From a virus, in the IMG/VR virus record IMGVR_UViG_3300020020_000126, positions 1-30,531 of that record: a stretch of 30,531 nt of DNA, one strand, 5' to 3'. The stretch's first letter is position 1, and each line of letters opens with the position of its first letter. The translations under genes were made by a program, and so were the position numbers. This document shows, piece after piece, positions 3,111 to 8,561 of this stretch. The notes beneath the pieces are model-generated. The model had not been told where the DNA came from. It worked only from the letters and a program-made list of their open reading frames with translations, and made no database searches.

Positions 3111-3138
3111 GCAGGCGTTTCCTTAGGGAAACGCCTGC
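3111..3138 (-). terminator. Hairpin terminator after the amidotransferase gene
   Basis: GCAGGCGTTTCC and GGAAACGCCTGC form a perfect 12-bp stem with a TTAG loop, 15 bases past the stop at 3153. Only a short T run follows on the minus strand (TTTCAT), so it may be a weak or partial terminator or an RNA-stabilising hairpin. Confidence 0.65.
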
Positions 3139-3152
3139 CAACAAAGTTCAAC

Positions 3153-4031
3153 CTATAGATCTTCGCAGGTGCATTTGAACTGGGATTTTCCGCAGGTCGT
3201 ACAGTCCTTGAGCTGGTCTAGGTGCTCGGTAATAGCTCCTCGGGATTTGATGTAACAAAGGCACTCGCCTTTGCCCCAATCGCTGAGACAGTCGACACAC
3301 GAGCTGCACGACCAGCAAACCCGGTAGTCTGGGTCTACTGCATTTTCCTGACCGCAAACGGGGCACGTTCGATCTGCTTTTTCGTCTGCTTTGTCGGTGA
3401 CATAGGAATACTCTCCGATGACGTATGCCCCGGTGTATTTCTTGGTGTTGTAGTACGGGAGATAGCTGTCGTTACTCCACCACGAATCGTGATACCAGTG
3501 TCCCTTGTCCTGATTGAACATCAGAGAAGAGTATGGGTAACGCGGGTTTGCGGTGAGAATGACGACCTTGTTGTATGCTCCAAGCCACCTTTCGAAAGCG
3601 TCACGCGCTAGCTGCGAGTGGAAGAATCCGAAAGGCTTCTCCGCGAGCAAATCCTCGGCGAGAATCCTGGTGTCCGAGCGTGGGTCGTGCTTTTCAGCAG
3701 GTTGGGCCAGTTCGGGGAGAATCCCGTTGTGCGCCAACACCGTTTTCTGATCTTTGCCGATGTAGAACGGGTGACAATTGCTTTCGTCTACCAGTCCCCC
3801 GGTACCGATTCGGCTGTGGAACAGGGCCGGGCCTTCGGGAAAGGTCATTCGATCGATAGTGAATTGATCGATGACCTTGTCCGCGTTCATGCCTTTTTGC
3901 ACCAGGATCTGTCCCTCCGTGACTATGGCATAGCCAAAGCCGTCGGAGTTGTATTCCGCACCCCTGTGTAGTCCCTCGATGGCCTGCTGATCTGGTACTA
4001 CGCTGTCGGGAAAGAATGTCAGGAGACACAT
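3153..4031 (-). CDS. Class II glutamine amidotransferase with zinc-ribbon tail
   Basis: The 292-aa protein begins MCLLTFFPD, so Cys2 becomes the N-terminal nucleophile after Met removal, as in the Ntn-hydrolase amidotransferases. Visible family motifs are NSDGFGY (28-34), HSRIGTGG (72-79), HNG (101-103) and SDT (119-121). Such domains hydrolyse glutamine and pass ammonia to a partner synthetase. After residue 220 there is an extra cysteine-rich region with about five CxxC or CxC knuckles, not part of the standard domain. The start has GGAGGAG upstream and overlaps the amidoligase stop by 13 bases, so the two are coupled and probably work together. A hairpin follows the stop. The family is confident; the substrate is unknown. 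Confidence 0.88.
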   Translation of the reverse strand: MCLLTFFPDSVVPDQQAIEGLHRGAEYNSDGFGYAIVTEGQILVQKGMNADKVIDQFTIDRMTFPEGPALFHSRIGTGGLVDESNCHPFYIGKDQKTVLAHNGILPELAQPAEKHDPRSDTRILAEDLLAEKPFGFFHSQLARDAFERWLGAYNKVVILTANPRYPYSSLMFNQDKGHWYHDSWWSNDSYLPYYNTKKYTGAYVIGEYSYVTDKADEKADRTCPVCGQENAVDPDYRVCWSCSSCVDCLSDWGKGECLCYIKSRGAITEHLDQLKDCTTCGKSQFKCTCEDL

Positions 4032-5344
4032 GACAGCTCCTCCATTCTCATCCGCAGATTGTTGTATTCCGGCTTATCAGCTAGCCATGCGTAGAAAGCG
4101 GACCAATCCCATCCGCCGTGCAGAACTTCGGAAGTAGACAGTTGTTCCGTATATTTCACCGAAGCGTGAGCAAATCCGAGTGAAGCCTTTACCTGGTGTG
4201 GATCAAGCGAACTCCGGAAAATCCGAAGTTCGAAGGTGTCCGTGTTGGCCACGTTGATCGCACGGTATCGGCTTGCGCTGTATCCATTTCCTTTGCAATA
4301 GTGCTTGATGTTGGCGCGGTCATCGGGATCGAAACTGGCCCACTCGTAAGAGTCCCGTCCCGCCACGACGGTCACCTTTTCACTGTTTCGATAGATGAAC
4401 TTCATCCACTTATACACGTGGGTAGGCGAGACGAACCCTTTTCGACTGAGGTGAACGTGGATGCCGACAGCGTCGTGCGTGCGGGCACCCGCGTCATGAA
4501 GTGCGGTCAGCATTTCCCAGGGAAAATTGTCCAACGCCCAGGTGTAACTCATCGGGTGCGTGACAATTTCGAATCCCATGTTGATCGAGCCATCCGACTT
4601 GAGATAACACACGTCGGTTGTCGTGTGATCCTTGATCACTGATTGGCACTGGATGTAGTGTTCACCGGTTTCGACTTCCAGTTCCATGCCGAGGAACAAA
4701 GGTCCATCGCCATGGAACTGAGGGGTCGGTCGGTAGTTCCACTCATTGACGTATTCGGGCGATATCCGATATGCTTGTCGCTGTCGGTTGGTGCGACAAC
4801 CGCTACAGCTACACTGATTGGTGTCTTCTCCGCAGCTACACGGCGAGTGGCGATTGCGCCACGCGCCACATCCGTCACATCGCACCACGCGTGATCCCTG
4901 ACACGATTCACAGTATTCTTCGTCATCGGTGCCGTTATAAATTGTGACCATCGGCGTTTGTGTGCGTATTCCACACCCGTAGCATTCCGGGTATTCCGAA
5001 ACGCATCGTCCGCACACAGAGGAACGGCGACCCGTCGACGTTGTTACCGATTGGAGATAGGACGAATACAACAGGCAGGTAGCGCACTGCTGATATCCGT
5101 TTGCGGTGAGGCAGTCGATGCACAGATTGGTTACCGTGAACTGATCCGTCAATGCAGTTACTGCATTGTGGCTTTCCTGCTCACAGGGTCGCCATGTGGT
5201 ATAGCAGTTTTGGCATTCCAGACTGGCCCCTCCCCAATAGTAGCTCTGTCGGACTTGGTGCACATTGCTACCACAGGCGAGACAGCGGTATCGCGTTTGG
5301 TCTGCGGGCATCGATTCCGGTGGAGGCGGTTGGTAAGTAGGCAT
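4019..5344 (-). CDS. Amidoligase (COOH-NH2 ligase) with N-terminal zinc knuckles
   Basis: I chose ATG 5344 (441 aa) because AGGAGAGG stands directly upstream; GTG 5410 would add 22 residues without a good site. Residues 20-185 hold about ten CxxC-type knuckles, probably zinc ribbons. Residues 215-400 match the amidoligase family of the glutamine-synthetase-like fold: LGMELEVE (218-225), KSDGSI (249-254), FEIVTHP (258-264), GIHVHLS (294-300) and FELRIFRSS (371-379). Family members form amide or peptide-like bonds using ATP. Pairing with a class II amidotransferase is known in phages and bacteria from comparative genomics; the product is not known. The genes overlap by 13 bases and form a two-gene cassette. 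Confidence 0.85.
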   Translation of the reverse strand: MPTYQPPPPESMPADQTRYRCLACGSNVHQVRQSYYWGGASLECQNCYTTWRPCEQESHNAVTALTDQFTVTNLCIDCLTANGYQQCATCLLYSSYLQSVTTSTGRRSSVCGRCVSEYPECYGCGIRTQTPMVTIYNGTDDEEYCESCQGSRVVRCDGCGAWRNRHSPCSCGEDTNQCSCSGCRTNRQRQAYRISPEYVNEWNYRPTPQFHGDGPLFLGMELEVETGEHYIQCQSVIKDHTTTDVCYLKSDGSINMGFEIVTHPMSYTWALDNFPWEMLTALHDAGARTHDAVGIHVHLSRKGFVSPTHVYKWMKFIYRNSEKVTVVAGRDSYEWASFDPDDRANIKHYCKGNGYSASRYRAINVANTDTFELRIFRSSLDPHQVKASLGFAHASVKYTEQLSTSEVLHGGWDWSAFYAWLADKPEYNNLRMRMEELSCVS

Positions 5345-5429
5345 TGCCTCTCCTGATCTGAGGACCATTGTGGAGTCCGACCAAGGACTCATTACGTATG
5401 AAGTTGTCACTGGCCGTTGAGACCATGAC

Positions 5430-5451
5430 AGTGTTTACCGTGGTAAACACT
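5430..5451. promoter_or_regulatory. 22-bp palindrome between membrane gene and amidoligase
   Basis: AGTGTTTACC and GGTAAACACT are perfect 10-bp arms separated by GT. It lies 9 bases past the stop at 5460 and about 86 bases before the amidoligase ATG. No T run follows, so an operator or processing hairpin is more likely than a terminator. Confidence 0.5.
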
Positions 5452-6097: not shown

Positions 6098-6526
6098 CTA
6101 CGCGGAGGAGTTGGCAAGCTCGCGACTCCCGTTGTCCGCGTCGGACTCGGCGTCGAGTCCATCGGCCGTGTCGGGGTTCGGCTCGACGTTGCCGTCGGAA
6201 GGGGTCTGAGTGGGCGCCTGAGTGCTTTTCAGGTACTCCCGGTAGGCGTCGGTCACGTCCTTGGAAAGCCGGCCACGCGCGGACACGTCGTGCCCGTTCT
6301 TGCGTGCCCACTCCCTGATCACGGTGTTTTCGTCGTTGCCGGTTTCGCGAGCTGTCCACTCGCCTTTGTCGATGAACGGCTGTAGCGCGTCCATGAGTAG
6401 GCCGTAGTTGTCAGCGGACATGTCGATGGTGAGCGTGCCCTCTTCCAACTTCACAGAGCGGGTGGCAACGGTGTCGTCAACCGTCGTACCGTCGAAGTCA
6501 TCGCGGAAGTAAACGATTTTCGCCAT
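6098..6526 (-). CDS. lsr2: Lsr2-like nucleoid-associated DNA-bridging protein
   Basis: The 142-aa product starts MAKIVYFRDDFDGTTVDDTV, as in the Lsr2 N-terminal oligomerisation domain (about 1-58). The C-terminal DNA-binding domain (66-98) reads IREWARKNGHDVSARGRLSK, with the RGR AT-hook-like motif at 84-86 that inserts into the minor groove of AT-rich DNA. Two features are unusual: the linker between the domains lacks the usual Arg/Gly-rich stretch, and residues 101-142 form an extra acidic, Pro/Asp-rich tail. Lsr2 silences foreign AT-rich genes in actinobacteria; phage copies could manage phage transcription or interfere with the host protein. AAAGG precedes the ATG, and a promoter-like pair lies at 6551-6579. 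Confidence 0.92.
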   Translation of the reverse strand: MAKIVYFRDDFDGTTVDDTVATRSVKLEEGTLTIDMSADNYGLLMDALQPFIDKGEWTARETGNDENTVIREWARKNGHDVSARGRLSKDVTDAYREYLKSTQAPTQTPSDGNVEPNPDTADGLDAESDADNGSRELANSSA

Positions 6527-6550: not shown

Positions 6551-6579
6551 ATTCGACAGGACCATTGTCGAACAGTCAA
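6551..6579 (-). promoter_or_regulatory. Candidate lsr2 promoter with TTCGACAA boxes
   Basis: On the minus strand TTGACT (6574-6579), a 17-base spacer and TCGAAT (6551-6556) precede the lsr2 ATG by about 25 bases. TTCGACAA occurs inside the spacer (6565-6572) and again 20 bases upstream (6585-6592), positions suited to repression or autoregulation. Confidence 0.55.
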
Positions 6580-6869
6580 TGCGATTGTCGAATCATTAAT
6601 GGCCTCACGTTTGTTTACACGTGGAATCTCGATGGAATGTACGTCTGTACGATTTCGAAACTGTTTCCAAACATGAGGCGACCCATGTTGGTCCATGATG
6701 AGTAGGCATGGATGGAATCGAATTGCGATTGGCCTATTAGCCATTCGTCATTCGATCCTATTTCGCGGAATACGTATGTGGCGGTTATGTATTCCTGCAT
6801 TTCTCAAGTCCTTAGTGGCTAAGGGTGAGGCCACAAATGATTCGACAATCACATTCACTATTTCGACAA
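6565..6869. repeat. Inverted repeat (about 45-bp arms) enclosing a 61-aa ORF
   Basis: The left arm 6565-6608 and right arm 6825-6869 are inverted copies, about 39 of 45 positions identical with one indel by my hand alignment. Each arm contains two TTCGACAA/TTGTCGAA boxes about 20 bases apart. Between them lies a 216-base unit with one minus-strand ORF and its ribosome binding site. The layout is that of an invertible segment, a small non-autonomous element or an inverted duplication; no recombinase is present in the window. Confidence 0.65.
6615..6800 (-). CDS. Small hypothetical protein inside the inverted repeat, 61 aa
   Basis: ATG at 6800 with AAGGA nine bases upstream. The protein begins MQEYITATYVFREIGSNDEW and ends YIPSRFHV. 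It is soluble-looking with alternating hydrophobic residues that suggest beta strands, and has no known motif. It is the only ORF with a ribosome binding site in the segment bounded by the inverted repeat, upstream of lsr2. Base composition is AT-richer than in the virion genes. The gene call is moderate; function unknown. Confidence 0.5.
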   Translation of the reverse strand: MQEYITATYVFREIGSNDEWLIGQSQFDSIHAYSSWTNMGRLMFGNSFEIVQTYIPSRFHV

Positions 6870-7910: not shown

Positions 7911-8561
7911 TAGGTCTCAAAATGAATAAGGAGAATTTTGGAAGTTGATCATGATTGTAACGGCTTATCTAGTGACGTCCAACTCCATCCCCAAGTAGGA
8001 GCAATTGCAGACAATGTTACAGTCATTCGCCTTTCTAACTCGTTTGCTTTGGATTTCGTATGACAGGGAACGGTAGATAAAAGCCGATCAACACCATAGC
8101 GCTTTGTAACGCGGCTTCCCCCTCCATAAACGTGTTGAACAAGTCGAGTTTGAATATCCGCAGTTTGCCCCACGTAGAAGCCATAGACATTCTTGAGTCT
8201 GAGTACATACACACGAAACGGCGGCTCTACCTGTAAGGCCAGATCGCAAATATCCTCCAAAGCGATTCTTACACTAGAGCATCTTCTACAACACGAGTTG
8301 AATTTATCCTCACTATTCATATCTACATAGAAGTAATCTTGAGTTAAAGGATACGCAGAATTACACGCTAAACAAAATTTATGCTGTGTTGGTTGATCAA
8401 CATCAAAAATGTATTTTCTAGGTCTTCCGGGCACGCGTTCCATAAGGACAATCCTATCACAACAGGTCTTAATCAAAATCTGTAAAGGGAATTTAGAATT
8501 TGATCTTGACAATTATAGGTCTGAAAAAGAATAAAGAGATTTTTTGAAAGTTGATCTTGAT
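7911..8561. repeat. Imperfect direct repeat flanking the GIY-YIG gene
   Basis: Copy A (7911-7955) and copy B (8516-8561) share about 38 of 46 positions, starting TAGGTCT and ending in TTGATC(A/T)TGAT. Copy A touches the last codon of the endonuclease gene; copy B lies upstream of its start. Such flanking repeats can mark insertion or duplication of a mobile gene, or two copies of one control site. Confidence 0.65.
7949..8443 (-). CDS. GIY-YIG endonuclease with N-terminal zinc ribbon, 164 aa
   Basis: I chose ATG 8443 because AGGA lies eight bases upstream; a TTG at 8512 would extend into the repeat. The N-terminal part has CLAC (about 25-28) and CCRRC (about 50-54), a zinc ribbon. The second half has YVLRLKNVYGFYVGQT (about 79-94), the YVL and FYVGQT strands of the GIY-YIG nuclease fold, then a conserved Arg in DIQTRL, a His in QHVYGG and a late Glu in ANELERR as candidate catalytic residues. 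Such proteins cut DNA and often act as free-standing homing endonucleases. The gene is AT-rich compared with its neighbours and flanked by direct repeats, consistent with mobility. Its exact target is unknown. Confidence 0.82.
   Translation of the reverse strand: MERVPGRPRKYIFDVDQPTQHKFCLACNSAYPLTQDYFYVDMNSEDKFNSCCRRCSSVRIALEDICDLALQVEPPFRVYVLRLKNVYGFYVGQTADIQTRLVQHVYGGGSRVTKRYGVDRLLSTVPCHTKSKANELERRMTVTLSAIAPTWGWSWTSLDKPLQS

Follow-up and report, generated by a model that had tools for sequence, protein, structure and literature searches.

The window analysed here is a 30,531-base IMG/VR virus fragment. On its minus strand it carries two overlapping open reading frames, which encode an Amidoligase_2 protein of 441 aa (4019..5344; Pfam PF12224, phrog_22302), hereafter the ligase, and a class II glutamine amidotransferase (GATase) of 292 aa (3153..4031; phrog_25883, and the GlmS glutaminase 1xff by profile). 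Two overlapping genes had been claimed in an earlier note on this DNA, and both were confirmed at these coordinates, with an overlap of 13 nt (4019..4031, minus strand). The ligase reading frame extends upstream to a GTG at 5410 that has no Shine-Dalgarno sequence, whereas the ATG at 5344 is preceded by AGGAG (5350..5354, minus strand) and is the better start. The GATase has its own Shine-Dalgarno sequence, GGAGGAG, before its ATG at 4031 (4037..4043, minus strand). An overlap of identical length is found in the relatives L096, L104, L110, and L118, and the two genes appear to be translationally coupled through it. Upstream of the pair is a 20-bp palindrome, GTGTTTACCGTGGTAAACAC (5431..5450), which is unique in the window when up to 3 mismatches are allowed (chance 0.02) and is a possible operator. 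A perfect 12-bp hairpin, GCAGGCGTTTCC/GGAAACGCCTGC (3111..3138, minus strand; inverted repeat I4), lies 3' of the GATase stop; it has no long T tract and the terminator scan made no call there, and a terminator role is possible. With the palindrome upstream and the hairpin after the GATase stop, the pair looks like a self-contained transcription unit, in which these would be the putative operator and terminator.

Against PF12224 the ligase scores 29.7 bits, with a cut-off of 22 and E 7.5e-7, and it matches phrog_22302 at 1.2e-45. In the catalytic domain (residues 199-437; 4034..4750, minus strand), the segments GMELEVE, KSDGS..GFEIVTHP, VGIHVHLS, and ELRIF as well as R330 are invariant or nearly so. 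Among 49 phage lineages compared at <70% identity, G219, E221, E223, D251, S253, G257, E259, P264, G294, H296, R330, E372, and R374 are invariant, and H298 is kept in 48. All residues of the ExE, HxHxS, and ExR motifs expected of an Amidoligase_2 member of the GS-GCS superfamily are found, in the order GxExE ... HxHxS ... ExR, which is the pattern of this superfamily. Their metal and ATP roles are presumably those known from glutamine synthetase (GS). In an AlphaFold2 model built on 50 sequences, pLDDT is mostly >90 across the catalytic half, and the core resembles that of YbdK (Z 12.9), of plant glutamate-cysteine ligase (GCL; Z 12.2), and of glutamine synthetases (about 11). Dop and PafA are also among the structural matches of the model by Foldseek. 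The catalytic core is thus predicted to have the fold of glutamine synthetase and glutamate-cysteine ligase. For YbdK, GCL, and GS the common fold extends across about 170-215 residues (Z 10.6-13.0). These proteins and Dop/PafA differ from the ligase in having neither zinc fingers nor a paired GATase, and identity is only 8-15%.

The GATase of the window is more divergent. It matches phrog_25883 at 5.6e-47 and scores 17.5 bits against Pfam GATase_4, which is under the cut-off of 23. This weak score probably reflects divergence rather than absence of residues or fold, because a profile of the protein and its relatives matches the GlmS glutaminase 1xff in PDB at 3.5e-15. In the Ntn glutaminase domain (3462..4031, minus strand), Cys2, H72, R74, T77, G79, H87-P88, H101-N102-G103, and D120 are invariant or near-invariant. 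H72, R74, G79, H87, P88, H101, N102, G103, and D120 do not vary in any of the 49 lineages, and 48 have Cys2, the exception being a cut or mis-started ORF. All elements of a class II site are found: the Met-Cys nucleophile (C2), Arg (R74), Asn-Gly (N102-G103), and Asp (D120). The model of the relative L117 has the Ntn glutaminase fold, matching 1xff with E 1.9e-7. Its GATase half also matches EgtC (4zfk) and PurF, and GlmS and PurF are better matches than EgtC. The partner gene therefore appears to encode a class II glutaminase whose catalytic residues are kept. Fold and residues are common to GlmS, PurF, and EgtC, but the window protein stands alone, has a zinc tail, and has a GS/GCS ligase as its partner. 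The earlier reading of the two genes as an amide-bond former and a glutamine-hydrolysing ammonia donor agrees with family, fold, and motif residues, which are kept in homologues of both.

Both proteins carry cysteine-rich regions, and the earlier estimate of about ten knuckles in the ligase and about five in the GATase is fair, the CxxC counts being nine and five. In the ligase they lie in an N-terminal zinc region (residues 21-183; 4796..5284, minus strand), modeled as tandem LIM-like modules of a repeated beta-hairpin and helix. The nine CxxC of residues 1-198 compare with a shuffle mean of 2.3, and nine were reached in 1 of 20,000 shuffles. The five in the GATase tail (residues 223-289; 3165..3365, minus strand) compare with a mean of 1.65 and were reached in 190 of 20,000. 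The three finger pairs that lie closest to the catalytic domain (C121/C124, C145/C148, and C156/C159) are kept in 42-46 of the 49 lineages and so appear to be the family core, the other fingers being variable. CxxC have been lost in the L041-type phage clade. The zinc module thus seems to be a conserved component of most pairs, which is new here. CxxC tails are found in many GATase relatives and are missing from most clostridial GATases, although the clostridial ligases keep six or seven CxxC; the GATase tails are therefore apparently independent of the ligase fingers. Sequence searches of PDB with the ligase zinc region place LIM chains first (E 1.1e-4, where Cys-rich bias is possible), and the Pfam scan of the ligase gave no LIM match. 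Because LIM modules bind proteins, the resemblance points to protein contact over nucleic-acid binding, with its weight limited by the same bias.

Recruitment to nucleic acid, one of the roles that had been suggested for the zinc domains, is not established; a direct contact between the subunits receives modest support from a pseudo-complex model. In this model the natural stop of L117 was read through to give a tethered chain, with a linker of roughly 30 residues before the GATase Met-Cys, and the alignment had 66 rows, including 23 fused ones. The result has a pLDDT of 83.5 and a pTM of 0.67, and pTM speaks for docking only indirectly. For two domains of these sizes that do not dock, the estimated pTM is about 0.5, and 0.67 by estimate calls for an inter-domain error near 5-7 A. 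The difference modestly suggests that ligase and GATase touch. By Foldseek, the GATase half of the pseudo-complex matches GlmS and the ligase half YbdK.

Relatives of the pair were found with family alignments; scans of viral contigs with the single window proteins, and a phage search at the DNA level, gave none. The IMG/VR scan gave 348 relatives, from which 80 loci were kept, and in 77 of these a GATase lies directly downstream of the ligase on the same strand. When IMG/VR and GTDB genomes are taken together, a GATase partner accompanies 168 of 191 ligase ORFs. Among the other 23 are additional tandem ligases next to a pair, ligases at contig ends, six giant ORFs, and two C. difficile elements. 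That such pairs exist in phages was known before, as the earlier note had said, and the pairing is much stronger than that note could know. None of the three outcomes named there as refuting was seen: the amidoligase match exists, homologues keep the catalytic residues, and the two genes co-occur strongly. Since some ligases (e.g., those of C. difficile AR1086-1, L126, and the Pseudonocardia giants) have no GATase neighbour, the ligase may use another amine source. In neighbour clustering, which used crude ORFs so that small genes may escape, no third gene recurs beyond about 8 of the 49 phage lineages. A larger fixed operon was rejected on this ground, and the pair appears to be a two-gene cassette, a self-sufficient core unit. 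PADLOC gave no match, and a defence-system label for the pair was dropped for that reason. NCBIfam yielded no equivalog above its cut-off.

Among the relatives found, the hosts are mainly actinobacteria and clostridia. The closest relatives, at 38-48% identity, are in Nocardia, Actinokineospora, Actinoplanes, and others, and further pairs are in Mycobacterium plasmids and clostridial elements. The closest pairs are often near genes of mobile elements (transposases, ArdC, TadE, DUF4192). The window itself encodes an Lsr2-type nucleoid protein (6098-6526, minus strand; Lsr2_DNA-bd 1.3e-14, dimerization 2.6e-8). Together with the actinobacterial affinity of the closest pairs, this makes an actinomycete the probable host. 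Upstream of the Lsr2 gene is a 38-nt inverted repeat (6571-6608 and 6825-6862; 87% complementary, 216 nt spacing), and a GIY-YIG endonuclease-like ORF (4e-7) is found at 7949-8512 on the minus strand.

Distribution within Nocardia is sporadic: the ligase is present in 29 of 78 genomes, 28 of which have two or more copies. Loci L098, L100-L104, and L113, for example, have two, sometimes three or four. Most copies are tandem ligase-GATase pairs about 2 kb apart and of two apparent subtypes, an arrangement that is new here. Ligase and GATase tree distances are correlated overall (Mantel r 0.68, 0/999 permutations), and this agreement is owed in part to common vertical descent. The Nocardia tandems are the stronger evidence for joint inheritance. 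In each of the 14 tandem pairs looked at, ligase and GATase have their nearest relatives in the same positional class, which suggests that partners stay with their own subtype.

Pairs of this kind recur in many unrelated phages and mobile elements and have already been discussed for gp105/gp106 of mycobacteriophage Marvin, for OM43 phages, and for phiEco32-type phages; their listing in phage genomes goes back well over a decade, with no product assigned. The window pair belongs to the Marvin type rather than to a new kind, with the ligase followed directly by the GATase on one strand and both of these subfamilies. Marvin and its relatives have the same order and subfamilies at about 37% and 39-40% identity, and Marvin also has a Cys-rich ligase N-terminus and a Cys-rich GATase tail. 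It differs in that its genes are 79 nt apart as annotated, with no overlap, and its ligase carries fewer CxxC and extends much further at the C-terminus. In the OM43 (Methylophilales) phages MEP401/402, adjacent ligase and GATase genes overlap as in the window, but identity is about 27%, CxxC are few in the ligase, and the GATase has none. The OM43 pairs are reported as auxiliary metabolic genes (PMC10580990); that paper cites Mageeney 2012 for the Marvin pair and Iyer 2009 for phiEco32 and wall modification against superinfection.

The cassette of phiEco32, PSA-HP1, and LUZ24-type phages (StenR_269) also includes an Amidoligase_2 and a class II GATase (PMC5498523, PMC3890496). It differs by its added genes for a GS-like ligase, an ATP-grasp protein, and a cyclotransferase, and the StenR_269 ligase is distant (19% identity) and lacks the zinc region. 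This larger cassette is described as peptidoglycan modification (PMC5498523), and the superinfection idea is repeated in PMC11318856. None of the accompanying genes was recognised among the scanned genes of the window, which is a fragment. Since only 2 of the 47 records searched have a gamma-glutamyl cyclotransferase, one of them StenR_269 with its cassette, the zinc-bearing pair seems to be a minimal version largely separate from the multi-gene peptidoglycan cassette, a distinction that is new here. The literature searched reported no tested activity of such pairs.

From family membership and residues, it is reasonably probable that the pair is a two-subunit carboxamide synthetase dependent on glutamine and ATP. 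The GATase would hydrolyse glutamine at Cys2 and pass ammonia to the ligase, which would use ATP to activate a carboxylate as acyl phosphate before releasing a primary amide. By family precedent, the acceptor would most likely be a glutamate-type side chain, since GS, GCL, GmaS, PafA, and Dop act on the gamma-carboxyl of glutamate or its amide. The LIM-like fingers would form the subunit interface, hold a macromolecular target, or both. Because no gene besides the pair is widely common across phage lineages, the acceptor is probably a host molecule rather than a phage-encoded precursor. A carboxylate of a host protein or peptide, peptidoglycan precursors included, would be the favoured target, and its modification could help the element to take over the cell or exclude rivals. 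The earlier suggestion that a host wall, protein, or small molecule is amidated is not established at this level, and each class of substrate by itself is improbable. With a self-sufficient cassette, conserved zinc modules, and cognate inheritance, the question is testable with two proteins.

One such class is protein. The zinc fingers would select a host protein, possibly Pup in actinobacteria, on which glutamate would be converted to glutamine or a C-terminal carboxyl amidated. This is rather unlikely. LIM-like modules are protein adaptors, and the Pup deamidase Dop and the Pup ligase PafA, which have the same fold, are among the structural matches of the ligase. The single capture of the ligase domain into giant proteins of Pseudonocardia that also have SecA-, PP2C-, and trypsin-like regions (described below) fits as well. 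Pup as the general target is ruled out, since the pair is also in clostridia and proteobacterial phages, which are not known to have Pup. If the target is protein, the pair would be an unfamiliar case of phage-encoded amidation of host proteins. In the most elaborate form of this idea, which we regard as quite unlikely, zinc fingers would guide a machine by which phages and mobile elements amidate selected carboxylates on host proteins (Glu to Gln) with ammonia from glutamine, the Nocardia tandems serving two sites or steps and the Pseudonocardia ligase being built into giant proteins.

A slightly less probable target is peptidoglycan, where the pair would amidate a stem-peptide carboxyl, as proposed for phiEco32-type phages, and remodelling would block superinfection. 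Actinobacteria and clostridia often have amidated peptidoglycan, which speaks for this target, whereas stem-peptide amidation is not usual in the Gram-negative methylotroph whose phages also have the pair. Multi-finger zinc modules are unexpected for a small lipid-linked substrate, and the pairs mostly occur without the cyclotransferase of the larger cassette. Published proposals concern related cassettes (PMC5498523, PMC10580990, and PMC11318856, citing Aravind-group work), and the wall idea stems from the phiEco32-type multi-gene cassettes (PMC5498523). If the wall is nevertheless the target, the pair would be a simple two-gene superinfection factor.

It is doubtful, though not much more so, that the ligase joins glutamate to an amine as GCL, EgtA, and YbdK do, in ergothioneine-like gamma-glutamyl chemistry with no ammonia transfer, and that its class II partner acts like EgtC, removing or editing the gamma-glutamyl group. 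By structure the ligase does match glutamate-amine ligases best (YbdK, GCL, GmaS), and the GATase half matches EgtC (4zfk), but the true ammonia donors GlmS and PurF match it better. A cyclotransferase is found beside related amidoligases in StenR_269 and PSA-HP1 (PMC5498523) and in Arthrobacter cluster AL (PMC5513430), and yet its presence in just the two searched records mentioned above, one being StenR_269, argues against this reading. Tailoring of small-molecule or peptide natural products, for which amidoligases are named to judge by the title of Iyer 2009 (cited in PMC10580990), is very unlikely, as neither a precursor peptide nor a transporter nor another enzyme is conserved next to the pair.

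Apart from the carboxamide synthetase proposed for the pair, the ligase domain has another setting in Pseudonocardia. Amidoligase domains there lie in giant open frames (L107/L171/L172 in G006:C44, G092, G093, G094, G104, and G116) of 7,561 to 58,239 codons, the lengths being as the search reported them and the assembly taken as is. Their zinc module is lost, the catalytic residues are kept in most domains, and the stretches examined contain no GATase. One giant frame examined has SecA-like, PP2C-like, and trypsin-like regions. Nine of the domains form one clade (support 0.954) within the actinobacterial paired clade (support 0.985), which suggests that the ligase domain was captured once into these proteins. 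This embedding is new here and, as a side finding, is worth a separate study.

Some other loci differ in their surroundings. In L005 (C. difficile phage AR1086-1) and the plasmid L091, the amidoligase lacks zinc fingers, and it adjoins a gene with a nucleotidyltransferase domain but no GATase. L132 was binned as Lokiarchaeota; terminase, SSB, and DnaB-like genes adjoin its pair and give it a tailed-phage appearance, and an archaeal host is doubted on account of these genes. A conserved CxxC protein of ~200 aa with no Pfam match is encoded downstream, within a few kb of the pair, at L096:9860-10447 and, as relatives, in 14 actinobacterial loci. In Actinokineospora (L094:7817-8740), the GATase gene overlaps at its end with an ArdC-type anti-restriction gene, which hints at a role in establishment of the element.
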